Shown in pieces: positions 27,169 through 39,907 of a stretch of DNA of 64,000 nucleotides. Below the pieces are notes generated by a model, which ran no database searches, was not told the origin of the DNA, and was given only the letters and a program-made list of their open reading frames with translations. The DNA is from Oscillospiraceae bacterium (lineage in GTDB: Bacteria > Bacillota > Clostridia > Oscillospirales > Oscillospiraceae), in assembly GCA_009787625.1 (NCBI GenBank), contig WQSX01000002.1, positions 124,001 through 188,000 on the forward strand, written 5' to 3'. A program made the position numbers and the translations under genes. The first letter of the stretch is position 1. Each line of letters starts with the position of its first letter.

Positions 27169-28209
27169 TCAGCCTATAGACATTTTTATCTTAAAAACTT
27201 GCTCCCAGAAACTTTTTATATAAAAATTAAGATCTAAATCTTCGTAATTGTCTTCAAAAGTTCGAACATCAGAGAATTCTTCCAAGAAACACTTGAATTC
27301 TTCTAATGCCTTTAACGCTTCTTTGACTTTTCTTCCATTAACATTTAGGTTTTGTTCCTCATCAATTTGGCCCTCACTAACAGCAGTTTGTATTTCATTT
27401 CCGTAAATGAAATTGTCTGCTAACAAATTGTTGTTGGTAACATGGGCAAAAATTGATGTAATTACGACGCCATTTTCGAGGTTATTTAATGCAGTTGAAA
27501 CATTAGAAGCTAAATGCTTAAATTCGTCAAATTCGCATGTTGGCTCATATTGTTTCATTATTGCTTTAACTTCCGTTTTATCCTTCGTACCTTTCAATCC
27601 AACTATAATTTCTTCTAATTTTTGTTTTTCTGCAACTATATCTTTGAAACTTTGTTCCATTTCTTTGTTTTCAGTTTCAAGTTTTTCAAATACATCCCTA
27701 GAGAGAGGGAGAGGGAAAGGGTTCTTGTTTATATAATCATCAATAGAGCAAATAGCTTCTTCTTTTTTCTTAGACCAGCGCGCCGTGGGTAGCAGATCAA
27801 TTGATGTCCATTTGTGAATTGTGTCTCTCAAATTGTCTAAGCCAGAGCTATCATTTAACTTGATTCCTTGCATAACATCAAAGGTAACACCAACAGTGGC
27901 GAAAGTGATGTTGGGGACAATAACAGGAATTACTTTGTCACAATTTGCCCAAGCTGCACCCATTTCGTTAAGGCATATTTCGCTTTCTTTATAATTCGGC
28001 GATATTACGAGTAAAACAACCTCAGCATTTAGTAGTGAGTCTTTGATGGCATTACGCCATTCATCGCCCGTTTTAACGCCCATACTATCTCCGGATGTGT
28101 AAAAGATATCTTCGTGTTTGATCCCCATTCCGTTTTGTAATAACCCATCCACGATAATATCTATAATAGCTTTATCTTTTGATGAATGGCTAATAAATAT
28201 CTTATACAT
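27169..28209 (-). CDS. TIR-domain protein with coiled coil
   Basis: Residues 1-140 form a TIR domain: YKIFISHSSKDKAI, the VVLLVISPNYKESEICLNE region and a downstream VIPVIVPN strand. The glutamate in SEICLNEMGAAW corresponds to the catalytic residue of TIR NADases. A coiled coil (about 178-210) and a helical domain of unknown type follow; total 346 residues. Bacterial TIR proteins often deplete NAD in phage defence, but no Thoeris partner or other recognised sensor is adjacent, so defence is inference. It has its own promoter and AAGGAGA ribosome site. Confidence 0.82.
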   Translation of the reverse strand: MYKIFISHSSKDKAIIDIIVDGLLQNGMGIKHEDIFYTSGDSMGVKTGDEWRNAIKDSLLNAEVVLLVISPNYKESEICLNEMGAAWANCDKVIPVIVPNITFATVGVTFDVMQGIKLNDSSGLDNLRDTIHKWTSIDLLPTARWSKKKEEAICSIDDYINKNPFPLPLSRDVFEKLETENKEMEQSFKDIVAEKQKLEEIIVGLKGTKDKTEVKAIMKQYEPTCEFDEFKHLASNVSTALNNLENGVVITSIFAHVTNNNLLADNFIYGNEIQTAVSEGQIDEEQNLNVNGRKVKEALKALEEFKCFLEEFSDVRTFEDNYEDLDLNFYIKSFWEQVFKIKMSIG

Positions 28210-28238
28210 AAATTTTCTCCTTATTTTGTAATATCTTT

Positions 28239-28267
28239 ATACTAGCATAAACGCACCCAATGTTCAA
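28239..28267 (-). promoter_or_regulatory. Sigma-A promoter of the TIR gene
   Basis: On the minus strand TTGAAC (28267-28262) and TAGTAT (28244-28239) are 17 bp apart, about 30 bp before the ATG at 28209. Confidence 0.6.
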
Positions 28268-28289
28268 CCGTTAATATAGTTTAAATGAC

Positions 28290-28415
28290 TTGACAAAGAA
28301 TGGTGTTAGAGTGTTTTTTGGTTACGAGAACATTACCGATGATGCAAGCGGCATTTTAATGGAATCCATGTTAGAGGGAATGGTGGAATGTTTTTCGGCA
28401 AATTTGGTCAAGGCC
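28290..28415 (+). pseudogene. Fragment of a large serine recombinase
   Basis: The frame reads KNGVRVFFGYENITDDASGI and then LMESMLEGMVECFSANLVK. This matches KNGVKVLSARENISDDASGV and LMESVLEGMAEYFSAEL of the intact integrase at 37826-39355, residues about 94-133. The DNA is clearly diverged, so it is the remnant of another, older recombinase and not a recent copy. Nothing of the catalytic N-terminus remains. Confidence 0.8.
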
Positions 28416-28437
28416 AGCGGAAACCACCTCACAAAAC

Positions 28438-28470
28438 ACCAAAAAGCTCGCCGAAGGCAAGCTTTTTGGT
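28438..28470. terminator. Strong hairpin, bidirectional terminator type
   Basis: The 11-bp arms ACCAAAAAGCT and AGCTTTTTGGT enclose an inner GCC-GAA-GGC stem-loop. A/T tracts suit both strands. Confidence 0.7.
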
Positions 28471-28492
28471 TTGGCTCGGCAGTTGCGGTTAA

Positions 28493-28503
28493 ATCCGAAC
28501 CAC
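28493..28503. other. Candidate left attachment core of the integrated element
   Basis: ATCCGAACCAC is identical to 39253-39263 within the last integrase codons next to tRNA-Asn. Joining the two sites would make the integrase frame run TCC GAA CCA CCA and end at the TGA at 28518-28520. See the findings. Confidence 0.5.
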
Positions 28504-28569
28504 CATTTTTCCTTGCCTGATAGGGTTATAATGTTGGCACAATTACAATTATGAGATACTAAAATTAAG

Positions 28570-28599
28570 AGTGCGGTCGATTGTCGCATCGTCCGCACT
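28570..28599 (-). terminator. Terminator of the rep operon
   Basis: AGTGCGG and CCGCACT arms with an inner CGAT/ATCG stem overlap the stop of the 61-residue gene. On the minus strand a T-containing tail (CTTAATTTTAG) follows. Confidence 0.55.
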
Positions 28600-28783
28600 A
28601 CTTCTTTTCTGACTCCTGATTATTTTTCCATGACTCAAACTCTTTTCTGATTTTCTCATCTGCAAAATATCGCTTTATTTCAGGGAGCAACCGTTTTGAT
28701 AATAGTATAATTTGCTCGTCTGAAACGTCTGTTGTTTGAGATATCAGGCTATTGAATTTATTGGTAGAGGATTTTTGGGTCAT
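28598..28783 (-). CDS. Small hypothetical protein downstream of Rep
   Basis: The 61-residue, highly charged, helical protein overlaps the rep stop by four bases (ATGA), which suggests coupled translation and a real gene. I do not recognise a family. The pattern DEQIILLSKRLLPEIKRYF is amphipathic. Its position implies a role in element replication or its control, but nothing in the sequence shows which. Confidence 0.6.
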   Translation of the reverse strand: MTQKSSTNKFNSLISQTTDVSDEQIILLSKRLLPEIKRYFADEKIRKEFESWKNNQESEKK

Positions 28784-29802
28784 GATGTATCCCCCTTATC
28801 CTTGATTTTTACGTAATTGCGTAAGCTTGTATCCCATCTGTATTTTTCAATCTCGTAACCTGATGAACCAGTCAAGACTTTGCCGTTTCCTGCACGGATT
28901 AAATCGTCATCTCGCTTACATAAGTTCAATAATTTATGCTTTTCTTTGAACACTCCACCGAACCCTAGCAACCGCCTACCTCGCAAAGCAGAATCTAATG
29001 TTGACACAATATCATCTGTAATTGAATCGGTGTATTTCTTTACCTCGTCTTGTATATCTTGGCTATGTGATTTTATATCGTATAAATTTGCCATGATATG
29101 AGAAGGCTTCACACAATATTTTGCGACTTCGCTAATTTCTTTCCCTTTGGTTTTTTCTTCTGCTGAAAATACTCTTACATCAACGATAGGGGTGTAGTCC
29201 ACTCTAAGCACTGATTTCCACATTGAGCACCACTCTTCTTGCTTTATATATAAATCAGAGGAGAAATATAATTCATTTACTGCGAGAACAATATGCAAGT
29301 GCGGATGAAAAGTTAAAGTTTGCCAGTTAAAAGTAACCTCTAAACATCTGAGCCACCCGTGGGTAGCAGACTGAAAGCGTTGGCGTAGACATAAGTTTTT
29401 ATATGCCAGTAAAAGCTTACTTATTGTTTCGCCCAACTGTTTTCCAATTACATTTTTACAGGTCAATGTTAGGAAAATATACTTATAATCATCTTCAACT
29501 GCATCCATTATTGTTCTGACATGAGCATATGTTTTGCGACTGCGTCTCCATGCACAAATCATACATACTTTATCTTGCTTGCAGAACCACGCTCTGTGCA
29601 AAAGCATAGAATGGTCATCGTATCGCCTAAATTCTAAATAGCCCCCACAGTTGATAATTCTTTCGTATTTAGAAATAAATCCTAACCGCTTGAAAGCTTG
29701 CGCTATACGCAAACTCATTAACCGTTTTGTTTTCCAAGCAACTTGCCTGCCACTATCCTTAACATCGTATAAAACTTCAATTGTTTCATTATCTTTAATC
29801 AT
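28780..29802 (-). CDS. Rolling-circle replication initiator (HUH, Rep_1-like)
   Basis: The 340-residue protein has the three HUH motifs in order: FLTLT at 110-114, HPHLH at 166-170 and KYCVK with the likely nicking tyrosine at 229. A cysteine cluster (C74, C80, C83) may bind zinc. This matches Rep proteins of pC194/pUB110-type plasmids. In an integrated element it would nick the origin of the excised circle and may double as the relaxase for transfer. The ribosome site GAAAGGCGAAGG precedes the ATG. The 61-residue gene follows, overlapping by 4 bases. Confidence 0.88.
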   Translation of the reverse strand: MIKDNETIEVLYDVKDSGRQVAWKTKRLMSLRIAQAFKRLGFISKYERIINCGGYLEFRRYDDHSMLLHRAWFCKQDKVCMICAWRRSRKTYAHVRTIMDAVEDDYKYIFLTLTCKNVIGKQLGETISKLLLAYKNLCLRQRFQSATHGWLRCLEVTFNWQTLTFHPHLHIVLAVNELYFSSDLYIKQEEWCSMWKSVLRVDYTPIVDVRVFSAEEKTKGKEISEVAKYCVKPSHIMANLYDIKSHSQDIQDEVKKYTDSITDDIVSTLDSALRGRRLLGFGGVFKEKHKLLNLCKRDDDLIRAGNGKVLTGSSGYEIEKYRWDTSLRNYVKIKDKGDTS

Positions 29803-29860
29803 TTTTAAAATCCTTCGCCTTTCCAGCTGTTGACCCTATAGAATCTAGTGAATGGAGGCT

Positions 29861-29890
29861 GGCGGCTTGCCTGCGGCAGCCGCCGCCGTT
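29861..29890. other. GC-rich hairpin upstream of rep
   Basis: GGCGGCT and AGCCGCC arms lie in the 94-bp gap between the 117-residue gene and rep, followed on the plus strand by a T6 run. It stands out in AT-rich surroundings. It could be a terminator on the plus strand or part of a replication origin. Confidence 0.5.
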
Positions 29891-29896
29891 TTTTAG

Positions 29897-30250
29897 CTAT
29901 GCAGTCGTTTGCATAGCAGATTTATTACTGCTTGCGATTCTTGTCACACTGATTTTACTTATCGGAGTGAAAGATGTCGGGGCAAGAGAAACCTTACCCT
30001 GAGAATCGATTTTGCTCGTCAGAGTAACTTCATACAGCGCAGGAACGACCTTGAAAGAATCCCAATCATCATACTTTATATTCGCTTTGGCTGGCACGTG
30101 ACCTTTTACTGGTCTAACTTGGTCTTCAGTCGGCGCTAAGTCCTCACTCAGACAGTAGCGGACAATACAACCATCGGTGGTAATCTCCCCCGTCTTCTCA
30201 TCAGTGATTTGATACTGACTTGCTGATAATACTAAAACTGTTTGCTTCAT
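29897..30250 (-). CDS. Hypothetical protein preceding Rep, possibly ssDNA-binding
   Basis: The 117-residue protein is predicted mostly beta-stranded, with a central segment (PVKGHVPAKANIKYDDWDSF) and a C-terminal strand pattern (LYEVTLTSKIDSQGKVSLAP). Size and position before a rolling-circle Rep recall single-strand-binding proteins of filamentous phages and conjugative elements, but I see no diagnostic motif, so this stays a suggestion. AAGGAG lies before the ATG. Confidence 0.55.
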   Translation of the reverse strand: MKQTVLVLSASQYQITDEKTGEITTDGCIVRYCLSEDLAPTEDQVRPVKGHVPAKANIKYDDWDSFKVVPALYEVTLTSKIDSQGKVSLAPTSFTPISKISVTRIASSNKSAMQTTA

Positions 30251-30611
30251 TATAAAAACTCCTTGCTAATCTAAATTTGTGTCTATTTAATCACTGCCTC
30301 ACCATGTCTAGAACTGTGGCAAAGTTGTGTTGTTTTGTTATGAACTTATGACATCATTTGCTTTGGATATTTTCAATCGTGCAATCGGCAAACAAAAATT
30401 TCATGTTGTGAAGAAGCATAACTTTTATTACGCTGATTGCCTTCTAAGCTCATTTTACTATCAAAAATTATCGACAAGTCAGGGAAATTTGAAAAGTAAG
30501 TAAGAAATACTATGAAGTAACTGTCTTGCAAGAAAAGACAATCTGTCATCGTTATACAACTGTGTACCCGTCTCTGGAAAAACTTTTGCCATGCTTGTAA
30601 ATAAAAGGTTG
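30251..30611. other. Non-coding gap between Rep and FtsK-like operons
   Basis: No convincing gene lies in this 361-bp stretch. It holds the first copy of a 40-bp repeat (30456-30495) and a TGTCTT/AAGACA inverted repeat near 30522. It may contain the promoter and operator of the 117-residue gene/rep operon, or an origin. Confidence 0.5.
30456..30495. repeat. 40-bp element, copy 1
   Basis: It begins TACTATCAAAAATTATCGAC and continues AAGTCAGGGAAATTTGAAAA. It matches 32398-32437 in about 35 of 40 positions, with a perfect central block ATCGACAAGTCAGGGAAATT. Confidence 0.85.
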
Positions 30612-31985
30612 CTATGTCTTTGTGCTGTCATTTTCTTTTGCTATTTTCGCAATTTCAGTCGGCACATCGAAGTTCAAAGTCGGGAAGAAACACAGTTTTA
30701 TTCCGCCAGTCGCAGGAGTAGAATAACAACCCTGTCCTGCTGAATAACGACGATTAGGTATAGTCGCTGATACACCAAAAAGCGTAATAACTGTTGTATT
30801 TTCTACACCTCTGGCAAGTAAAATTTTACAAGGCAGGTTGTCACGAATTTCTGTTGGAATTGATGTTGCATCAGATTTTTGCATAGCAAAAAATATAAAG
30901 CAGCCCAAGGCACGACCTTGGAGTATCACAGCTTTTAACATAGTTGAAAATTCATCTCTAATGCTTTTTTCCATCTTTCCTATAAAAGCAAACACAGAAC
31001 TTGCCTCTTCCATAATAAAGATATGAGGAGATAATCCAAAGTCACGGTAGTCAACTGAATAATGTCCTTCAAGCATTTTTTGATATTCTACCTTTCGAGT
31101 CTCAATTGCATTATGAAATTTACGCATGAGCTCTATGATTTCCTCAATGGTTTCGGCTGTGCTATCTTTTGATATGCGCTTTCCGAGTGCTCCCAAGTCT
31201 GTCATTTTTACGTCTGCATAATATAAATAATATTTAATCGATTTCGCAAGGCATTGATGTATGAAATTTATCAAACTTAAGCTTTTTCCACTGCCAGTCG
31301 CACCCACGAATAAACTAGAACTCAACTCAACTGGTGGACTCCGACTGTCGATTTTCAACTCATAATCGCCACATTTAGCCCACTCTACAAAATCTTCTGC
31401 ATTTGTAAATACCTCTTGACGTTGTGTTTTCATATGGCTGAACTCGTAAATAAAATGATTACCATCATCTGTTATGTATGATTCTTCTATAACATAGCCT
31501 CCTGATAAAGCTGATGACAGGCATATGCTTTCGTATGGCTTTTCCCATAAAATATGACATTCGAGTTCAAGCTGACCTCTCAAATTATCTTTATCCAGCA
31601 CTATCCTCACATTTGGCAATCTTGCAGATATTTCTTTGGACGAAAATCCATCAGTAATGTAATACTTCGCCTCATGTAAGCTCTTTCTAACCCTGTGAAG
31701 CAAGCGGGCGTGTATTATAGCGTGCTTAAAGCCTCTTGTGTACAGTCGATGCCGAAAGCCCCATGTGATAAAAGCAACTATTATTAAAATGATTGCCAGC
31801 ATGAAGCTATAAAACGTCACATGTTGTGCCACCTGCACAGTTGAAAAAAGAAAATCAAATGCATTTATTTGAATGAAATGTACAAATACCTTACACAATG
31901 CTCCGATAGCTACAAAAACTAAAAGTAATATCCAAAATGCCAGTAACGTTCTGTCGCTTTTAATTGGCGGTCTCATTTTATACAC
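30612..31985 (-). CDS. FtsK/SpoIIIE-like (TcpA-type) DNA translocase or coupling ATPase
   Basis: The 457-residue protein has two N-terminal membrane helices (about 14-36 and 57-76), then an ATPase domain with Walker A VGATGSGKSLSLI near residue 226 and Walker B HIFIMEEAS near 316. It resembles the coupling ATPases of Tn916-type elements and the FtsK-like transfer proteins of actinomycete elements. It probably pumps element DNA at the membrane. It is much shorter than chromosomal FtsK, whose gene begins separately at 63671. It overlaps the upstream 121-residue gene by 13 bases. Confidence 0.85.
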   Translation of the reverse strand: MYKMRPPIKSDRTLLAFWILLLVFVAIGALCKVFVHFIQINAFDFLFSTVQVAQHVTFYSFMLAIILIIVAFITWGFRHRLYTRGFKHAIIHARLLHRVRKSLHEAKYYITDGFSSKEISARLPNVRIVLDKDNLRGQLELECHILWEKPYESICLSSALSGGYVIEESYITDDGNHFIYEFSHMKTQRQEVFTNAEDFVEWAKCGDYELKIDSRSPPVELSSSLFVGATGSGKSLSLINFIHQCLAKSIKYYLYYADVKMTDLGALGKRISKDSTAETIEEIIELMRKFHNAIETRKVEYQKMLEGHYSVDYRDFGLSPHIFIMEEASSVFAFIGKMEKSIRDEFSTMLKAVILQGRALGCFIFFAMQKSDATSIPTEIRDNLPCKILLARGVENTTVITLFGVSATIPNRRYSAGQGCYSTPATGGIKLCFFPTLNFDVPTEIAKIAKENDSTKT

Positions 31986-32338
31986 CTCCGCAGAACACCG
32001 ATTTTAGATATGACCTTAACCAGTAAAGTTTTTTTTGCGAAGCGGTCTAATTGACGCCTCAAAGCACACAATGTTTCATGCACATCATCAAACTCATAGA
32101 GCAAAAGCGACATTTCATCAAAGCGAAGCAGTAAAGGCTTACGCCAGAAATTAAAACTTTGCAGATATCCATTACATTGCACAAGTGCTTTTGATAAATT
32201 TTTGACTGTGAATGCCTCGTACCAATCATCACAAAAGGTTTCAATCGTTAGAATCTCCGAGAAAGTCCACATGAATTTTTGACGATGATATGGCGTTGTG
32301 TCGCCGCATTTTTGATAAGTTTTTAGCATAATTCTCAC
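31973..32338 (-). CDS. Hypothetical protein coupled to the FtsK-like gene
   Basis: The 121-residue protein is basic and probably helical, with aromatic-rich segments (FCDDWYEAF) and no family I recognise. Its end overlaps the ATPase start, so the pair is likely translated together. Both GTG at 32338 and ATG at 32329 are possible starts; AAGGGA upstream is better spaced for the latter. The second copy of the 40-bp repeat lies 60 bases upstream. Confidence 0.6.
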   Translation of the reverse strand: MRIMLKTYQKCGDTTPYHRQKFMWTFSEILTIETFCDDWYEAFTVKNLSKALVQCNGYLQSFNFWRKPLLLRFDEMSLLLYEFDDVHETLCALRRQLDRFAKKTLLVKVISKIGVLRRCIK

Positions 32339-32397
32339 GTTCCCTTGCTTTTATTTTAGACGACAGTTATAATAGGTAGTCGACTTACTGTTCATAC

Positions 32398-32437
32398 TAC
32401 TATAAAAAAACATCGACAAGTCAGGGAAATTAGAAAA
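32398..32437. repeat. 40-bp element, copy 2
   Basis: It begins TACTATAAAAAAACATCGAC and continues AAGTCAGGGAAATTAGAAAA, ending right at the ATG of the 329-residue gene. It lies between that gene and the leftward FtsK-like operon. See copy 1 at 30456. Confidence 0.85.
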
Positions 32438-33427
32438 ATGAAAAAGAAATTTTATACACTTAAGGATGCGCTTGAATTTTACAACAAAAAACCCTCTGGT
32501 GAAGAGGGTGAATGGATAACGTACTCGCGCCAACACGTCATAGAGGTTATAAAAAACGATTATCACGGAAACAAAATGCTTCTAAATGAAAGGTGTATAT
32601 GCAACTGTTCTGGAAAGGCAGAAATTTTTGGGATAACACTGTTTAATGAAAACGCTTCAAGTCCTGATGAAGAATATTTTTTTGACAAACCTTATCCCGA
32701 TGAATGTAAACATTTGCTAAAAAGCAATGACAGATATTCGACATGGGTGATGAATCGTGAATATATGTTAAACTTATTCTTTGAATTGGAAAGGCGGAAA
32801 TTTCCATCAGGAAAACATCAGATTATTAAGGCAAGCAGAAAGCAACTTAAAGATAAACTAGTGGGTCTTATTGAACAACCTATTAAGCAGAACATAAAAG
32901 ATTTAATTTATCAAAAACTCGAACATGAAATGGTCTCATTAGATGAGCAAATTCGTTTAAAAATAGAACATCTAAATGAATGCAATAATGCAGAGAGAAA
33001 TCGCTTTGACAACATCTTGCTTTTCTTCAAAAAACCACAAGTATTCCAAAATATAAACGCCCCAATGATTATTGAATCGTTAGAAAGTAAAAGAAATGAA
33101 TTAAAAGAAGCCACTTTAATTATTGATTGCACTTCAACGTTACAATCACTTAAACGCAGTGTAAATGAAAATTATTGTTTCATCTCAAACGACCAAAGTG
33201 TGCATGAATCGGAAATCACAAAAATTGTAGAAATGTACTTAAAACGTCAAAAGGTAATACTCGATGATTGGGGTAAACTCCATGAGCAGTGGAACAGAAA
33301 CATTAAGAAAGCATACTCATTGAGATATGAGCTTATTGAGGAGATAAGAGCTGAAATTGATTCGATATCAGATGAAGATATAAAAAAATGGGTTAGGTCG
33401 TCCGCAGAAATAGCTGGAATCGGGTAA
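32438..33427 (+). CDS. Hypothetical helical protein of the element
   Basis: I do not recognise this 329-residue protein. The N-terminal third is mixed alpha/beta with CICNC and a later cysteine; the rest is charged and probably forms long helices or coiled coils (residues about 125-325). It is transcribed rightward, opposite to its neighbours, and begins exactly at the end of the 40-bp repeat, which must contain its ribosome site (AGGGAAAT). Cargo or regulatory roles are both possible. Confidence 0.65.
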   Translation: MKKKFYTLKDALEFYNKKPSGEEGEWITYSRQHVIEVIKNDYHGNKMLLNERCICNCSGKAEIFGITLFNENASSPDEEYFFDKPYPDECKHLLKSNDRYSTWVMNREYMLNLFFELERRKFPSGKHQIIKASRKQLKDKLVGLIEQPIKQNIKDLIYQKLEHEMVSLDEQIRLKIEHLNECNNAERNRFDNILLFFKKPQVFQNINAPMIIESLESKRNELKEATLIIDCTSTLQSLKRSVNENYCFISNDQSVHESEITKIVEMYLKRQKVILDDWGKLHEQWNRNIKKAYSLRYELIEEIRAEIDSISDEDIKKWVRSSAEIAGIG

Positions 33428-33470
33428 CTGTAAAAATTATTCGCTTGGGTTGTCGCTATTCTATGTTAAA

Positions 33471-34637
33471 CTATCTGTTTCCTTTTGCCCGATTATGAGT
33501 TTTGCAAAGCATTTCACAATTTGATATGTCAGTTGCTCCGCCCCTGCTCCATGCCTGTACATGGTCTGCGTCCATATCTTTAATCGCCCATATTTTTGTT
33601 TTATTGGAATCGTGACCGATTGCACATAAAGGGCAGTTTGATGTGCCATTTGTATTTGCGTGCTCTGTCTGCTGTCTAAACACTGCTTGCTTTACAGCAT
33701 CGTCAAAAACTCTGACATCAATTAGTTTTGTATCTTGCTCACCGCCTAAGATATACTCAATGATACCTTTTTTATTCTTTACATAATAGTCACCATACAG
33801 GCGTTGTAGCGTGGCTGATACTTCGGTGGGATTGTATGAATTTCGGTAGTAAGTTTCATAGAGCCTACCCCACTCCAGTCCTCGCATTTCCTTTTCAACA
33901 TCAGAGAACACACCAGACGCCCAGTCAATGACGGTATTAAAATATGTTTTCAACTCATTTATATTGTCGTTTCTCCGATTTGCCGACATATATCCATCAA
34001 TATCCTGACCTTTAGAACTGGCTACCCATGACAACGCCACCTCTAAAAGTTCTTGCCTTTGCGGAGTGCCTTTGACATAGGCACTCCATTTTTGAATGTT
34101 TGCATTATTAGAGTTGCTGAATTCTGTTTTTGCCTGAGTGACAAATTCGCCTGAGTACACTGCATTGCGTTCCTCTTGAGAGTTTATAGGCACTCCTGCT
34201 ATATTGATTGTCTTAAACCATTCCTTTATCTCGCTCTCTTCTCCCACGCAGTGATAGACAAGCAAAGTGCTGTTCATTATTTTATCCTGGAGTTCACCAT
34301 CAAGAGAGTCAAATAATTGTTCTCGCCCATTGTAGATAATTGCAAACTTCTTAGTCACGAATCTCCCGATAGAAGTAATGCGTTGCTGTCCGTCAAGCAC
34401 TTCAAATTTATCATCGGTTATATTATTAAAGTAAATTAGTCCGAGCGGATAACCTTTCAATAGTGAGTCAATTACAGCAACATCTTTTTTGCCGTCTGCA
34501 TAAATATAGTTGCGTTGGTATTCAGGTTGGATTGTCAGTTTGCCCGATAACCCAAAGAGACCTCTGCCCTCTAATTCGTTGTATACAAAGCCATCAACTA
34601 TTTTTTTTACCGTGTATTCTTCAAGTTTTGCTTTCAT
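33471..34637 (-). CDS. DUF262 and HNH nuclease protein
   Basis: The first 200 residues form a DUF262 (ParB/GmrS-like) domain: IQPEYQRNYIY, then GYPLGLIYFN and EVLDGQQRITSI, whose DGQQR motif is the hallmark. The last 50 residues are an HNH nuclease: CPLC, then MDADHVQAWSRGG and CKTHNRAKGNR. Length is 388 residues. Proteins of this class include GmrSD-type modification-dependent nucleases. It lies 10 bases after an EcoRI-family methyltransferase and shares its operon. The pair probably forms a restriction or modification-linked defence unit; specificity is unknown. AAGGAG precedes the ATG. Confidence 0.85.
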   Translation of the reverse strand: MKAKLEEYTVKKIVDGFVYNELEGRGLFGLSGKLTIQPEYQRNYIYADGKKDVAVIDSLLKGYPLGLIYFNNITDDKFEVLDGQQRITSIGRFVTKKFAIIYNGREQLFDSLDGELQDKIMNSTLLVYHCVGEESEIKEWFKTINIAGVPINSQEERNAVYSGEFVTQAKTEFSNSNNANIQKWSAYVKGTPQRQELLEVALSWVASSKGQDIDGYMSANRRNDNINELKTYFNTVIDWASGVFSDVEKEMRGLEWGRLYETYYRNSYNPTEVSATLQRLYGDYYVKNKKGIIEYILGGEQDTKLIDVRVFDDAVKQAVFRQQTEHANTNGTSNCPLCAIGHDSNKTKIWAIKDMDADHVQAWSRGGATDISNCEMLCKTHNRAKGNR

Positions 34638-34647
34638 TAGTCGCTCC

Positions 34648-35817
34648 TTAGATATGTTTAATCAGAATGCGCTGATATACTTTTTCTAATAATCCGTTTT
34701 TTTCTAAAACACCACTTGCGTTTAGGTCATATGTGCCATTCTTTCCGAACTTAGCAAAATAAGCCTGCTGGCACTCTGCGGAAGTATAAACTTTAGTCTT
34801 TAAACCATATAAATCAAGGTTTTCGCACATACCCACAATTTCAAATTGCTCTGGACAGTATTTATCAAGAAATGATATAGGTACACCCATTATTCCGTCA
34901 TAATCGGAGGGCGTAGAATTTGTGTAAGGAACATCTATAGCATCATAATTATCATAATTATCATAATTATTTTTACCTCTAATTTCTTTGTGCTTGCTGA
35001 ATTTTAAATTATCAGCCATAGTCATAAGTGGTAATGGCTGATGTCTGCGACCGTGGTCAATATTTGTAAACCAACGAACACCCTTGACCCTAATAAATTT
35101 CTTTCCATTTTCATCAACTCCACAATTCGACGCATAAAGGTCGAAATTATCTGGAACGTTAAATTTTCTATCACCGCTTGAAATACTCGGTCCAAGCCAC
35201 GCTTGATTTTCTTTAATCAAAGGAAAAACCTCTTTATAAGTAATTGCGTTCATATTGCCAATAATCAAAAACTGTTTTTTTGCTTCAAGAATCCATGTTA
35301 GAAACTCTCGAAATAGTGAAAAAGGAGGGTTAGTGATTATTATATCAGCTTCATCACGCAAGTTTTTAACTTCATCGCTACGAAAGTCTCCATCACCCTC
35401 TAACCGGACTAGAGTGTTTTTTTTGTTTTCGAGAAGCCACTCAACATCAAGCAAATTAACGGCCCCATCTTTATTGAAATCTTTAACTTCGGTAATTTCA
35501 ATTTTGTGCGGAACTCCTGTAGTTTTATTAGTTTTAGGCTCATCTTTAAATAAAGTCAGTTGTGTATTTGCTATAGGGGAGCCTTTGTAACAAGTTGCAA
35601 TCAGCTTTTTCAGTCCAAAACTATTAAAGGACAGGGCAAAAAATTTAAGAAAATTACTTTCATAGGGGTCGTCACAGGGACAGAGTATTGTTTTTCCTCT
35701 GAAGACATCAGGGTTGTACTCTAAGTATGCATTTACTTCTCGCTCTATATCTGTCCATTGGGTATAAAATTCGTCATTTTTTGCTTTTTTTGCTTTTGTT
35801 AAATCTGCATTTGCCAT
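34648..35817 (-). CDS. EcoRI-family adenine-specific DNA methyltransferase
   Basis: The 389-residue protein begins with KNDEFYTQWTDIEREV, has PCDDPYESNF, the catalytic NPPF motif (IIITNPPFSLFREF) near residue 160, and GVRWFTNIDHGRR, all typical of M.EcoRI relatives, which methylate adenine. M.EcoRI itself is about 326 residues; this one is longer. The stretch NYDNYDNYD is encoded by a perfect three-copy 9-bp tandem repeat. No EcoRI-like endonuclease is present; a DUF262-HNH protein takes its place downstream. AAAGGAG precedes the ATG. Confidence 0.85.
   Translation of the reverse strand: MANADLTKAKKAKNDEFYTQWTDIEREVNAYLEYNPDVFRGKTILCPCDDPYESNFLKFFALSFNSFGLKKLIATCYKGSPIANTQLTLFKDEPKTNKTTGVPHKIEITEVKDFNKDGAVNLLDVEWLLENKKNTLVRLEGDGDFRSDEVKNLRDEADIIITNPPFSLFREFLTWILEAKKQFLIIGNMNAITYKEVFPLIKENQAWLGPSISSGDRKFNVPDNFDLYASNCGVDENGKKFIRVKGVRWFTNIDHGRRHQPLPLMTMADNLKFSKHKEIRGKNNYDNYDNYDAIDVPYTNSTPSDYDGIMGVPISFLDKYCPEQFEIVGMCENLDLYGLKTKVYTSAECQQAYFAKFGKNGTYDLNASGVLEKNGLLEKVYQRILIKHI
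34942..34968. repeat. 9-bp tandem repeat in the methyltransferase gene
   Basis: ATCATAATT occurs three times without a gap, encoding NYD three times on the minus strand. Copy-number change would keep the frame. Confidence 0.9.
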
Positions 35818-35978
35818 AATTAGCTCCTTTTGCGTTGCTGTTTGGTAAACTTTCCTGCGCCTTATGTTGTGGTGATATTATATACAGAAACCGATGAAAT
35901 TGCAAGGCAAAATCTGTGCGTTACAATTCAGTCAAAAAGCCGTTTATTCTTTTGAATCTACTGCTCAAGTTAAGCTGT

Positions 35979-36401
35979 TTACAGTCTAAAAGTGGCAAGC
36001 AAATGCTTCTTTTTACTGATATTTTTGCACTTTAGACAGATTAGTTCTTTATCGGTAGAAAGTCTCATTAGATACATTTTTTCATCATTAGTCAAGTATC
36101 TCATTGTTATTCGCTCATCATTATTATCAAAGCAACTAGCACAATACTCACCACTCTCACCCTCAAATTTAACGTAAGAGTAGCCAGAAAAACGTATAAC
36201 TCGCCCTCTCCAATCTTCAATGCGTTCTTGCTTCATGTTTTCATTTCTGCTATTTGCATCATTGTCTTGATAGAGATTGAATGTGTTATTATCGCCCCTA
36301 GACTTAATATGCGATTTGTTCGAGTTTTTGATAGAGTTGCCCCTTGGCTCTTTTGAAAACAACGATTTAATAAATTTAATGACAGTCATTATATAATCCA
36401 T
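35979..36401 (-). CDS. Hypothetical protein with zinc-ribbon-like C-terminus
   Basis: The 140-residue protein has a basic N-terminal segment, a polar middle and a C-terminal part with two CxxC pairs (CASC and CLKC, about 27 residues apart), which could bind one zinc ion. I do not recognise the family. It has a promoter at 36438-36465 and GGAGG 11 bases before the ATG, so it is probably expressed. It lies upstream of the methyltransferase gene, separated by 161 bases. Confidence 0.6.
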   Translation of the reverse strand: MDYIMTVIKFIKSLFSKEPRGNSIKNSNKSHIKSRGDNNTFNLYQDNDANSRNENMKQERIEDWRGRVIRFSGYSYVKFEGESGEYCASCFDNNDERITMRYLTNDEKMYLMRLSTDKELICLKCKNISKKKHLLATFRL

Positions 36402-36437
36402 CTTGCATTAGTCCTCCACAATATATTGTATAAATGC

Positions 36438-36465
36438 AGTGTAATGTATTTGCTTTGTTTGTCAA
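36438..36465 (-). promoter_or_regulatory. Sigma-A promoter of the zinc-ribbon gene
   Basis: On the minus strand TTGACA (36465-36460) and TACACT (36443-36438) are 16 bp apart. Confidence 0.55.
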
Positions 36466-36587
36466 TAGCTAATTTTCGAGCTGAGTTAAAATAATCGAAT
36501 ATTTCCTCGCATAATATCATGGAAAACTCTGCCGTATCAATTGACAAGGCGATTATTCTCAAATTTAAGCATAGCACCATATAATTA

Positions 36588-36702
36588 AATACCCTGCGAG
36601 GGGAGTAAGGTATTAAAAACATAGGTCAAGAACTGGTAGAAATTTTATCTGCGGATAAATTTTCTATCGCAAGTGCTTTCAGCATTCTTGACCTATGTTT
36701 TT
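36588..36702. ncRNA. Large imperfect hairpin structure (candidate ncRNA or origin)
   Basis: AAAAACATAGGTCAAGAA (36615-36632) and its exact reverse complement (36685-36702) form an 18-bp stem. Inside it, TAGAAATTTTATC and GATAAATTTTCTA pair with one mismatch. Just upstream, AATACC/GGTATT and CCCT/AGGG make a smaller stem. The remaining 36403-36790 gap holds no gene I can support. Confidence 0.6.
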
Positions 36703-36790
36703 TGCTATGCACCAATCTGAGCATAAGCACCTTGACAATTGAATATACATCAGGAGCAACCAAAAATATTTTTTAGGAGGAATACCGAAC

Positions 36791-37300
36791 ATGAAAACTT
36801 TTATTTATTTCAAGCCACAGCCTGAAACTCTGGAAGAATTAAAATCTGCATATCGCAAGTTAGCGATGATTCATCACCCCGACCGTGGCGGTAATACCGA
36901 GACGATGAAAGCGGTCAACGCTGAGTATGATTTGCTTTTTGAAGTTCTAAAGAATATACACCGCACAAAGGACGGAGAAAAGTACACGGCACGACAGCCG
37001 ACGTCAGAAACCGCTGAGAACTTTAAAGACTTGATAGCGGAGCTGATGAGAATGGACGAGATAACGATTGAAGTTATCGGGTGCTTTGTTTGGGTCACTG
37101 GTAACACCAAGCCATACAAGGAGCAGTTAAAGTCTCTGCGTTTTTTGTGGCATAGCAAAAAATCTGCGTGGTATCTTAAACCCGAAGATTATAAACGTCA
37201 GAGCCGTAAGGATTATAGTTTTGATGAAATTCGGACTATGTACGGTTCGGGTGGTAAGGTCATTAGTCACGGTACTGTGAAGATTGATGAGAGTGCGTAG
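36791..37300 (+). CDS. J-domain (DnaJ-like) protein
   Basis: The 169-residue protein carries a J domain in its first 60 residues with the HPD motif (IHHPDRGGNTETMKAVNAEY). The remaining part has a strand-rich WVTGNTKPYKEQLK and KKSAWYLKPEDY region seen in proteins of clostridial mobile elements. J domains stimulate Hsp70; what this one recruits DnaK to is unknown, perhaps Rep or its complexes. AGGAGG precedes the ATG closely, and the structured region lies upstream. Confidence 0.8.
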   Translation: MKTFIYFKPQPETLEELKSAYRKLAMIHHPDRGGNTETMKAVNAEYDLLFEVLKNIHRTKDGEKYTARQPTSETAENFKDLIAELMRMDEITIEVIGCFVWVTGNTKPYKEQLKSLRFLWHSKKSAWYLKPEDYKRQSRKDYSFDEIRTMYGSGGKVISHGTVKIDESA

Positions 37301-37418
37301 GGCGAACGAAAACGGCAGGGTGCGAAGTAAAATTTGCACCTTGCTGCTCTCGGAATTTTGGAAGTAGACATTAAACCTGAAACACAATAATCGTAAATAA
37401 AAGTATACGACATTCGTG

Positions 37419-37447
37419 TTGACGACGTTTCTGAAATAGTATATACT
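37419..37447 (+). promoter_or_regulatory. Sigma-A promoter of the regulator-integrase operon
   Basis: TTGACG and TATACT are separated by 17 bp, 22 bp upstream of the XRE gene start. Confidence 0.7.
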
Positions 37448-37469
37448 GTTCTTGAAAGGGATTGATTCA

Positions 37470-37829
37470 ATGACAGATATATTTTCAGAAAGGCTAAGAG
37501 CGTTAAGAGAGGGTATGGGCATATCACAGGCAAAGATTGCAAAACTTGTCGGAACGACACAGGCAAGCATTAACCGCTACGAAAATAGAGTTGGCTTGCC
37601 CCCTCATGCGACATTACTATGGTACGCTGATTATTTTGATGTTTCACTCGATTACATCTATGGCAGAACAGACAAACCAGAAGGGAAATTATACGATTAT
37701 CAGCCAAAGATTATTGATGATAGTGAAGAAATGCAGAAATTTATAGAGATGTGCTTTGACCCGAAATCACCGATGAATGACAGATTAAAGCAAACTCTAT
37801 TAGAAATGGTGAAAGGGGAAAATGTATGA
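37470..37829 (+). CDS. XRE-family transcriptional regulator
   Basis: The 119-residue protein has an N-terminal helix-turn-helix of the Cro/CI type (GISQAKIAKLVGTTQASINRYE) and a short acidic C-terminal part. It shares an operon and a 4-base overlap (ATGA) with the integrase, so it probably controls excision. ATGACAGAT behind GAAAGGGA is the start; the TTG at 37452 lies in the ribosome-site region. Confidence 0.88.
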   Translation: MTDIFSERLRALREGMGISQAKIAKLVGTTQASINRYENRVGLPPHATLLWYADYFDVSLDYIYGRTDKPEGKLYDYQPKIIDDSEEMQKFIEMCFDPKSPMNDRLKQTLLEMVKGENV

Positions 37830-39355
37830 ATGTAGTTTTTTATGGTCGATATAGTGCTTTAGGTCAGTCAGAACAGAGCATTGAGGGGCAGAGGAAAGTA
37901 TGTTATGAATTTGCCGAGCGTAATGGTTACAAAATTATTGCCGAGTATATCGACAGAGCGATTTCAGGTACAGATGCAGATAACCGCCCTGAATTTCAAA
38001 GAATGATTGCCGATAGTGCAAAACGACAATTTCAAGGCGTTCTTGTGTATCAGCTCGACCGTTTTGCGAGAAATCGCTATGATTCTGCAACGTATAAATC
38101 CAAACTAAAAAAGAATGGTGTCAAGGTATTATCTGCGAGAGAAAACATTTCGGACGATGCAAGCGGTGTGCTTATGGAATCCGTTTTAGAGGGTATGGCA
38201 GAATATTTCTCTGCGGAGCTTTCGCAAAAGGTCAAACGTGGCTTGGCTTTGACTGCTGAGAAATGCGAATATACAGGCAGTTATGCTCCCCTTGGCTACA
38301 AGGTTGTTGATAAAAAAATTGTGTTGCATGAAGATGAGTTTCTTGTTGTCAAACGTATGTTTGATATGTATATCTCAGGTAAAACAATGGTTGATATAAT
38401 CCGCCACCTTGACAGTATCGGGATTAAAACAAGGCACGGCAACTCATACCACAAAGATACAATCAGGCGTATTTTGACTAATAGAAAGTATCTCGGTATT
38501 TATATTTATGATGGTGTTGAAGTCGCTGATGGTATACCAAGGATTATTGATGATAGCACTTTTAATGAGGCTCAAGAAATGCTTGCGAAAAACAAGAAAG
38601 CACCTGCAAGGCAAAAAGCAGTTGAGGAAAATTACTTACTCACAACAAAACTATTCTGCGGACATTGCCTTAGTGCCATAGTGGGTGATAGCGGTCACTC
38701 TCGAAACGGCACAATTCATCAGTATTATAGATGCATTACTCGCAAGCGAAAAGGCTCGTGCAGTATGAAAACGATTAAAAAGACAGACCTTGAAAACTTA
38801 GTTGTTAAGCGTGTTTTAGATGGATTGACTGATGAAAAAATAAATAAAATGGCAAAAGAAATCGCCGACCTTTCAATCGCTGAAAGTAACACCGATACCA
38901 TCAAAAGATTGAGAAAGTCACTAAAAGAGAACGAAATTGCCACAGCGAACTTAATAAAAGCGATAGAAGCCGGCAAGGCTGTTGATGTTATATCAGAACA
39001 AATAGAGAAACGGCAAAACGAAAAAAAAGACCTCGAAAGTCGGATTGCACATGAGATGTTGATGCGCCCTGTCCTCACATTTGAAGAAGTAAAATTTTTC
39101 TTTGAACGGTTTAAGTGTGGCGATGTGAGTGATTATAATTACCGCACAAGCGTTATTGATGTGCTTGTGGATAAAATACTGGTATATGACGGTGATAATG
39201 CTCGTGTCGAAATCTATTGCCGTGCCAGTGAAAATTGCCTTGAAATGCCAATATCCGAACCACATCAAAGCGGTTCGGATAAGGCGCACTTGGCTCCCCA
39301 AGCTGGACTCGAACCAGCGACCCTGCGGTTAACAGCCGCATGCTCTACCAACTGA
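37826..39355 (+). CDS. Large serine recombinase (integrase)
   Basis: The 509-residue protein has an N-terminal resolvase domain with the catalytic serine at residue 10 (FYGRYSALGQ), followed by LDRFARN, a recombinase domain and a zinc ribbon (CGHC and later cysteines, about 277-312), then a coiled coil. It would integrate and excise the element. The last 31 residues are odd: from about 39262 on the codons come from the chromosome beyond the candidate att core, and the last 21 run through tRNA-Asn in antisense. In the excised circle the gene would end differently. Confidence 0.93.
   Translation: MNVVFYGRYSALGQSEQSIEGQRKVCYEFAERNGYKIIAEYIDRAISGTDADNRPEFQRMIADSAKRQFQGVLVYQLDRFARNRYDSATYKSKLKKNGVKVLSARENISDDASGVLMESVLEGMAEYFSAELSQKVKRGLALTAEKCEYTGSYAPLGYKVVDKKIVLHEDEFLVVKRMFDMYISGKTMVDIIRHLDSIGIKTRHGNSYHKDTIRRILTNRKYLGIYIYDGVEVADGIPRIIDDSTFNEAQEMLAKNKKAPARQKAVEENYLLTTKLFCGHCLSAIVGDSGHSRNGTIHQYYRCITRKRKGSCSMKTIKKTDLENLVVKRVLDGLTDEKINKMAKEIADLSIAESNTDTIKRLRKSLKENEIATANLIKAIEAGKAVDVISEQIEKRQNEKKDLESRIAHEMLMRPVLTFEEVKFFFERFKCGDVSDYNYRTSVIDVLVDKILVYDGDNARVEIYCRASENCLEMPISEPHQSGSDKAHLAPQAGLEPATLRLTAACSTN
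39253..39280. other. Candidate right attachment core with inverted repeat
   Basis: ATCCGAACC (39253-39261) and GGTTCGGAT (39272-39280) form a 9-bp inverted repeat 10 bp from the CCA end of tRNA-Asn. Its left arm plus AC is the 11-bp sequence repeated at 28493. In the chromosome the hairpin could be the terminator of the tRNA. Confidence 0.55.
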
Positions 39356-39366
39356 GCTATTGAGGA
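39291..39366 (-). tRNA. tRNA-Asn(GTT)
   Basis: The 76-nt gene has a full cloverleaf, with acceptor arms TCCTCAA/TTGGGGA, the D arm GCTC/GAGC, anticodon loop CTGTTAA with GTT, a TTCGAGT T loop and encoded CCA. The integrase frame overlaps it by 65 nt on the other strand. A promoter lies at 39445-39473. Confidence 0.97.
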
Positions 39367-39444
39367 ATATCTGAGCCCGATATTTCAGGCTCTCCGCGTT
39401 TCAGCGCAACAATAAAAATAGAGTCGCAAAAAACGCACTATGTT

Positions 39445-39473
39445 ATGCTACAACATAAATCGAAATTTGTCAA
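39445..39473 (-). promoter_or_regulatory. Probable tRNA-Asn promoter
   Basis: On the minus strand TTGACA (39473-39468) and TAGCAT (39450-39445) are 17 bp apart, about 75 bp upstream of the mature tRNA. Confidence 0.55.
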
Positions 39474-39493
39474 GAGCAATCTATATTAATTCA

Positions 39494-39907
39494 TCAAATT
39501 ACGGCGAGGTCCGTAAAGTATGCTCGTAAAATCAAGTCCAAAGATAACCCTAAATCGCCATTGACTCGCTCAACCAACCTCAAAGAAATATCGTCAATGT
39601 CTTTCTCTGTTGTGAGTTCTTCCATGGTGAGCTCGCCCAACACTGCAAGTATGGAGTGCCTTATGACAAATACAAGTGTATTTAGCTCTTCTATAGCAGC
39701 TTCATCCATAACCTCAAAAACCATAGAAGCGCGAACTTGCCTGCGCGGGTCGTCATGGTTGAAATTTGTAGTGAAAGCTGTGCCGGGATTGAAAATATGA
39801 ACCGCTGGAACTCTGGGGGGAGCAGATTCGCACGCCGCGAGCAAGAACATGCCTGCCAAGACAACAGACACAAGTGGAACTATTTTCTTGAAAATCGCCT
39901 TTATCAC
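39494..39907 (-). CDS. FliL-like flagellar protein made as a lipoprotein
   Basis: The 137-residue protein has a lipoprotein signal peptide ending in LLAAC, and the mature part follows the FliL pattern: NPGTAFTTNFNHDDPRRQVRA, then IRHSILAVLGELTMEEL, and a C-terminal LRAYFTDLAVI. FliL proteins surround the flagellar stator and normally have a membrane helix; here lipid would anchor it. GTG at 39907 is 8 bases after GGAGG; ATG at 39913 lies too close to it. No other flagellar basal-body gene is adjacent. Confidence 0.75.
   Translation of the reverse strand: MIKAIFKKIVPLVSVVLAGMFLLAACESAPPRVPAVHIFNPGTAFTTNFNHDDPRRQVRASMVFEVMDEAAIEELNTLVFVIRHSILAVLGELTMEELTTEKDIDDISLRLVERVNGDLGLSLDLILRAYFTDLAVI

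Follow-up and report, generated by a model that had tools for sequence, protein, structure and literature searches.

A serine integrase element at a tRNA-Asn gene of an Oscillospiraceae bacterium, with a probable exchange site in the tRNA 3' end and a candidate replacement terminator

The window analysed here, 64,000 nucleotides of contig WQSX01000002.1 from an Oscillospiraceae bacterium (assembly GCA_009787625.1), contains a putative mobile element of 10,819 bp (28471-39289), which lies between two copies of the heptamer TTGGCTC and adjoins a tRNA-Asn (GTT) gene, its predicted target. The tRNA gene is on the minus strand (39291..39366 by ARAGORN; Rfam RF00005 at 39294-39366), with its 3' end at 39291. 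A large serine integrase gene (37826..39355, plus strand) runs into it, and residues 489-509 of the integrase are the antisense of tRNA-Asn. The right heptamer (39290..39296, plus strand) covers the CCA end of the tRNA, and the left one (28471..28477, plus strand) appears to be a displaced copy of that end. There is a hairpin in the integrase tail (39253..39280), and another hairpin, resembling an intrinsic terminator, abuts the left heptamer (28438..28470). We consider it probable that the element was inserted by exchange in TTGGCTC at the tRNA-Asn end, that a dyad-shaped attachment site (attP) was split by the insertion, and that the hairpin in the integrase tail is a replacement terminator.

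The integrase, of 509 aa in the integrated state, carries the Resolvase N-terminal, Recombinase and zinc-ribbon domains of large serine integrases (PF00239, PF07508, PF13408), belongs to PHROG 95 (integrase) and matches the Protein Data Bank (PDB) chains of A118, TP901-1 and SPbeta YokA. It is the predicted recombinase of attP and attB, and the short exchange region and the dyad attP distinct from attB, as expected of this family, were recognised by comparison only. The five closest integrase loci among the named genomes were all in Oscillospiraceae metagenome-assembled genomes, which we take, from the isolate names, to be of termite-gut origin.

The longest exact word common to the two ends of the element (28301-28700 and 39101-39500) is the 11-mer ATCCGAACCAC, followed by two 9-bp words. 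It is present in exact copies on the same strand at 28493-28503 and 39253-39263, as had been claimed in the original prediction, and the right copy is inside the integrase open reading frame (37826-39355). In the whole genome (3.02 Mb, 94 contigs) it occurs five times, four forward and one reverse. As about 0.04 such matches would be expected (400 x 400 / 4^11), it is unlikely that the repeat is a pure coincidence between the element ends. The original prediction had taken it for the att core; comparison with relatives suggests instead that it results from an att arm and a hairpin.

The att arm could be recognised from a dyad at the 3' end of related integrase genes. One relative, on contig C61 of genome G056, has GGTTCGGAT-N31-ATCCGAACC in this place, and this was the sole dyad-bearing genome among 60. 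When viral contigs were scanned for GTTCGGAT-N31-ATCCGAAC, 100 stretches came up; 80 of them were retrieved, and a dyad was counted as linked to an integrase when a relative of the integrase (E <= 1e-10) ended within 250 bp of it. This was the case in 62 of the 80 loci, and the other 18 had no integrase match. With a spacer of N30 only 10 loci were found, none of them with an integrase, and N35 gave no loci. The integrase frame crossed the dyad centre in all 62 linked loci, with the stop 57-129 nt past the centre, and the dyad arm was in a single codon phase in 54 of them; some of the viral loci are near-copies, and 48 distinct dyads had enough flank for further comparison.

In the window, the 400 bp around each end share 10 words of at least 7 bp, and joining the ends at TTGGCTC alone gives the dyad, with a spacer of exactly 31 bp. 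The shared 9-bp words TATTTCAGG and TGCGGTTAA were also tried as cores, and joining either yields no dyad. The resulting attP would be 49 bp long (GGTTCGGAT, 31 bp and ATCCGAACC), with the circle junction reading GGTTCGGAT-9 bp-TTGGCTC-15 bp-ATCCGAACC. Its inner, integrase-side arm GGTTCGGAT is at 39272..39280, and its outer arm ATCCGAACC, which is also that of the 62 viral dyads and of the G056 relative, is at 28493-28501 within the left repeat copy (28493..28503), both on the plus strand. TTGGCTC begins 22 bp to the left of the left repeat copy and 37 bp to the right of the right copy. The left copy of the 11-mer would thus be the outer dyad arm and the right copy one strand of an element-borne hairpin, and the two match because the right copy pairs in that hairpin with the inner arm.

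Joining at TTGGCTC gives a computed circle of 10,819 bp, in which the integrase would have 515 aa and the tail ...HLARQLRLNPNHHFSLPDRVIMLAQLQL / ...GSDKAHLARQLRLNPNHHFSLPDRVIMLAQLQL; it differs from the integrated form from residue 491, so that residues 491-509 would change in the circle. The empty site would read AAGCTTTTTGGTTTGGCTCCCCAAGC. The prediction of a serine-integrase element that gains a new integrase C-terminus on excision is upheld, with ends no more than about 40 bp from the repeats. What is revised is the exact position of these ends, for which TTGGCTC is favoured over the repeat, and the predicted tail, ...HLARQLRLNPNHHFSLPDRVIMLAQLQL in place of SEPPFFLA.

Support for an exchange at the tRNA end comes from the relatives. 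Integrases 59-69% identical to that of the window run likewise into tRNA-Arg (TCT, ACG), tRNA-Leu (CAG, TAA) and a transfer-messenger RNA (tmRNA), remoter ones run into tRNA-Leu, Lys, Asp and Ala, and integrase remnants run into tRNA-Arg (CCT) and tRNA-Met. The ends of the tmRNA element (G018, contig C2) both carry the 14-bp word TGGTGGAGCTGAGG, the two copies lying 12,536 bp apart, and the outer arm of this element stands at the spacing usual in the family. No longer word is common to the two ends, the runner-up having 8 bp, and the arm and hairpin of this element have CGAAC alone in common.

A related empty site was also inspected. In the occupied site of G044, attL is tRNA-Leu ...CCGCACCA followed by the element, and attR is ...CTGCACCATGCCGAGTG. 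The corresponding tRNA-Leu site in G159, a genome of the same genus, is empty and reads ...CCGCACCATGTCGAGTG, after which comes a hairpin resembling a terminator (z -5.6). Comparison of the two (flank identity 89% and 72%) places the exchange inside GCACCA, at the CCA end of the tRNA. As the G044 integrase is 43% identical to that of the window, with perfect arms, this supports the window by homology only. The attR exchange region of the window has a homologous placement in G018 and in G044/G159. Numbered along the dyad, the word common to the two ends covers positions 19-25 in the window, 20-25 in C47/C23 (two further contigs of the same genome, where the pairing of C47 with either site on C23 is unproven, given two left ends and a contig break), 20-33 in G018, 25-30 in G044 and 25-32 in G031. 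Position 25, the dyad centre, is contained in all five.

Other traces of the family were seen in the same genome. Contig C47 has a second integrase that ends in antisense tRNA-Leu (L149 1-1600), and C23 has two left-end-like sites with the outer arm, 1.6 kb apart (L147 3440-5090), perhaps a tandem or a remnant. An internally deleted integrase remnant on C50 (L103 4110-4620) retains the tail and hairpin beside tRNA-Arg (CCT). Among phages, the integrases of Acutalibacter phage Fontainebleau (L265) and Roseburia phage Shimadzu (L262) are annotated as misc_feature or pseudogene; the start of the Fontainebleau record resembles a tRNA end by eye, and the integrase feature reaches the first base of the record.

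The hairpin that abuts the left exchange region has 15 pairs (z -4.3), heads a list of 16 terminator-like sites in 28200-39600 and is on the tRNA strand. It is likely to be the native tRNA-Asn terminator. For the other left flanks, z was -1.3 in G018 and -1.5 and -5.5 at the two C23 sites. The hairpin in the integrase tail, ATCCGAACC-loop-GGTTCGGAT, has the right copy of ATCCGAACCAC as its 5' half (z -5.2 on the tRNA strand), and its position suggests a replacement terminator for tRNA-Asn. At most sister integrases a hairpin directly precedes the tRNA end, in or adjoining the integrase tail, and several of these hairpins have T-rich tails. Folding of the 62 nt that follow the tRNA gave a z of about -2.5 or lower at 13 of the 15 tRNA-abutting integrase ends (L103, which is borderline, L096 and L101a being remnants, and L069 and L070 near-copies) and in all four tails without an integrase. 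As sister elements bear counterparts of the hairpin at other tRNAs, in the integrase tail, the hairpin belongs to the element. It was therefore rejected as the chromosomal terminator of tRNA-Asn, and excision would remove it from the chromosome and bring back what appears to be the chromosome's own terminator, contrary to the original prediction that the hairpin would be kept.

Ten distinct stretches downstream of tRNA-Asn were found in the genus. Four (L097, L098, L110 and L101) have an integrase-type tail with its hairpin and no adjacent integrase, and here the hairpin may have been retained as the tRNA terminator. Five have unrelated hairpins (including loci also labelled L107, L108 and L109). 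The last, L047 in G011, has tRNA-Asn followed by AATCCGAACA...TGTTCGGATTTG and resembles the distal end of an opposite-polarity element.

Among the relatives the hairpin is mostly found in the half-site turned towards the tRNA, which suggests a replacement terminator. Elements of opposite polarity carry it on the other side: all four attL sites at which a tRNA was detected have it at the far end, and one more site gave no tRNA call. When 43 loci were sorted by the motif at the dyad centre (8 were unclassable), an integrase-side hairpin was found in 6 of 8 loci of the TGG class against 2 of 27 of the CCA class, and an outer-side hairpin in 20 of 27 CCA loci against 1 of 8 TGG loci. The 27 CCA loci include L158, which repeats L011, and L017, an intact attP; without these the outer-side count is 18/25, with further near-copy rows remaining. 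The viral dyads, whose tRNA is inferred from the centre motif and not seen, gave a similar division: distal in 20/34 and integrase-side in 4/34 for CCA, integrase-side in 5/7 and distal in 0/7 for TGG (2 and 1 for the other 7 dyads). In a tree of 78 of the 118 integrase loci, the polarity label requires at least 6 changes, and the hairpin is integrase-side in 14/18 TGG rows and 7/60 CCA rows. The loci left out were too short, unclassed or identical, three were classed by a visible tRNA, and the tree, from a short search, has some long branches. The stem itself varies in a compensatory manner. In an alignment of 12 of 19 stretches, with the structure taken from one sequence, 12 of 19 pairs vary on both sides, none of 500 shuffles was as high, and the signal drops when the structure is slid. 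The stretches omitted were L084 and L095 (no hairpin), L149, L152 and L094 (other stems) and L070 and L097 (near-copies).

We therefore propose the following sequence of events. The attP dyad would overlap the last integrase codons, and serine-integrase exchange inside TTGGCTC, the final bases of tRNA-Asn, would separate its arms, with the inner arm staying at 39272-39280 and the outer arm coming to lie at 28493-28501. The integrase frame would then be completed by 19 codons read from the tRNA antisense strand. Integration would also move the likely native terminator (28438-28470) 10.8 kb away, and the hairpin at 39253-39280 would take its place behind the tRNA. Excision, if it occurs, would restore terminator-TTGGCTC-tRNA-Asn on the chromosome, remove the hairpin, and leave an integrase of 515 aa ending in ...HLARQLRLNPNHHFSLPDRVIMLAQLQL.

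Several observations weigh against this proposal. TTGGCTC, at 7 bp, is shorter than the 11-bp ATCCGAACCAC, and the five occupied pairs have only dyad position 25 in common, which does not fix the exchanged dinucleotide. The window hairpin is without a T run and is not among the listed terminator-like sites, and two tRNA-abutting members (L084, z -0.9; L095, z +1.0) have no hairpin. The tree offers just 6 independent contrasts; on average, the hairpin side agrees with polarity in 3.8 of these, opposes it in 0.3 and shows no difference in 2.0 (median p 0.125). The search for an empty counterpart of this locus also gave no junction. The left flank was matched in 5 of 19 genus genomes, including its own, with no chromosomal junction among them, and the transglutaminase gene of the flank was matched in 58 of 120 family genomes, from which two regions were fetched, neither with a tRNA. 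Among the other left-flank matches, one was in G015 (query 75-547, a locus without a tRNA) and the rest were of an integrase remnant to integrases. For the flank of the tmRNA element, the only find in the genus was in G005, where a tRNA-Ser at a different locus has a similar terminator next to it. Just left of the terminator in the window, an open frame (28290-28520, plus strand) is integrase-like in its first part (28291-28400 against integrase genes by blastn), which suggests an older integrase remnant and reuse of the site.

The lack of a T run in the window, the missing hairpin at 2 of the 15 tRNA-abutting ends and the presence of the att arm within the hairpin could be explained if exchange takes place at the tRNA end and the hairpin, rather than being a terminator, is an additional site bound by the integrase or its directionality factor, or arises as a side effect of the sequence of the arm. 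This is a possible but distinctly less favoured explanation. The compensatory changes reach along the stem past the arm, the hairpin side tracks tRNA polarity, several sister hairpins have T-rich tails, and in the empty site of G159 a native hairpin occupies the same position. These observations argue for a terminator, and termination of transcription by either hairpin is a prediction. It is improbable that the att sites are as described and the element is an immobile fossil. The integrase remnant directly left of the terminator, the four tRNA-Asn loci of the genus that retain a tail without an integrase, and the mere 7 bp in common between the ends would fit such a history; against it, the integrase frame is uninterrupted and encodes all three domains, and both arms are perfect and exactly spaced. 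Exchange within the 11-bp repeat, with a circle coding ...SEPPFFLA, a junction reading ...ATATCCGAACCACCATTT and a chromosome that retains the hairpin, can be given very little credence: although the repeat is the longest word common to both ends and the frame does stay open after the join (to TGA 28518-28520, as had been correctly calculated, for a product of 484 aa), the join makes no family dyad, the hairpin travels with the element as integrase-tail sequence at other tRNAs, the G018 arm and hairpin share 5 bp whereas its tmRNA end is repeated over 14 bp, and the empty site of the G044 relative is located at the tRNA end, so that the repeat is probably not the exchange point.

Returning to exchange at the tRNA end, the same arrangement may extend to a clade of serine integrases of Bacillota mobile elements and phages, and we lean, with some reservation, towards this wider reading. 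Its members would specialise in the 3' ends of tRNA genes, of many isotypes, and of tmRNA genes, carry attP in the integrase tail, and use the tRNA-facing half-site as a replacement terminator, the side of which switches with orientation. The integrase C-terminus would be encoded by the host, by the antisense strand of the tRNA in one polarity and by the displaced native terminator in the other.

The element carries several other genes. A Rolling-circle-type replication protein (Rep_1; PF01446, E 4.6e-64) is encoded at 28780..29802 and an FtsK/SpoIIIE-like ATPase (PHROG 1358, E 3.8e-18; without a Pfam match at E 0.001) at 30612..31985. The cargo includes a restriction enzyme (33471-34637; PADLOC REase_II, with GmrSD N-terminal and HNH domains) and, adjoining it, an EcoRI-type methyltransferase (34648-35817; PADLOC MTase_II, PF13651). 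These four genes are on the minus strand, and a helix-turn-helix (HTH) regulator (37452..37829, plus strand; PF01381) is upstream of the integrase. On the chromosomal side of the integration site, a TIR-domain protein is encoded on the minus strand (27169-28209), with spbK as its best PADLOC match.

In a review, mobilizable elements with serine recombinases are described as disrupting dispensable genes (PMC5704250), and in Mycobacterium abscessus tyrosine-type sites overlap tRNA or tmRNA genes in 16 of 23 cases, with six sites using serine integrases (PMC10654092). The short cores of serine integrases make att sites hard to find (PMC10654092). A clade with a recognisable attP, GTTCGGAT-N31-ATCCGAAC, would allow element ends to be read off the sequence, and the att pairs proposed here are candidates for targeting conserved tRNA ends. 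Terminator replacement is a proposed way in which such an element could spare the tRNA gene damage to its transcription. In the parts of the literature searched, no serine-integrase half-site was described as a tRNA terminator; insertion of a serine integrase element in a tRNA gene and exchange of the integrase tail have each been reported, and their combination was not found in the same material.

Serine recombinases in tRNA genes have been called rare, the examples being actinomycete integrative and conjugative elements (AICEs) of Mycobacterium in tRNA-Leu and phage phiRSM1 in tRNA-Ser (PMC3218068). The present element is like these in its target, by description only, and differs in that related integrases with a shared dyad are found at many isotypes and in both orientations. 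Faecalibacterium phage Pioen (PP479940) has an integrase 35% identical to that of the window and an GTTCGTTT-N31-AAACGAAC dyad with a CCACCA centre at the integrase 3' end. It differs in being a phage, in its arm sequence and in its CCA polarity class.

In streptococcal integrative and conjugative elements (ICEs) with a single serine integrase in rumA, integration exchanges the integrase tail (Ambroset et al. 2016, PMC4701971). As in these ICEs, the att site is inside the 3' end of the serine integrase gene and the C-terminus would be swapped on integration, with the integrase frame crossing the exchange point in the window and in all 62 integrase-linked viral dyads. The target in the window is tRNA-Asn and not rumA. 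In the rumA ICEs the 3' part of a protein gene is exchanged, and the available part of the integration account has no terminator replacement, whereas here the end of a tRNA or tmRNA is used and its antisense strand, or the native terminator, would supply the tail. There is also a partial likeness to the tRNA and tmRNA islands of the Islander type. According to PMC4383910, no serine integrases were known in tRNA genes, and those islands use tyrosine integrases, while the recombinase here is of the serine family; in both, the end of the tRNA gene is restored and a displaced copy of it is left at the other end of the element.

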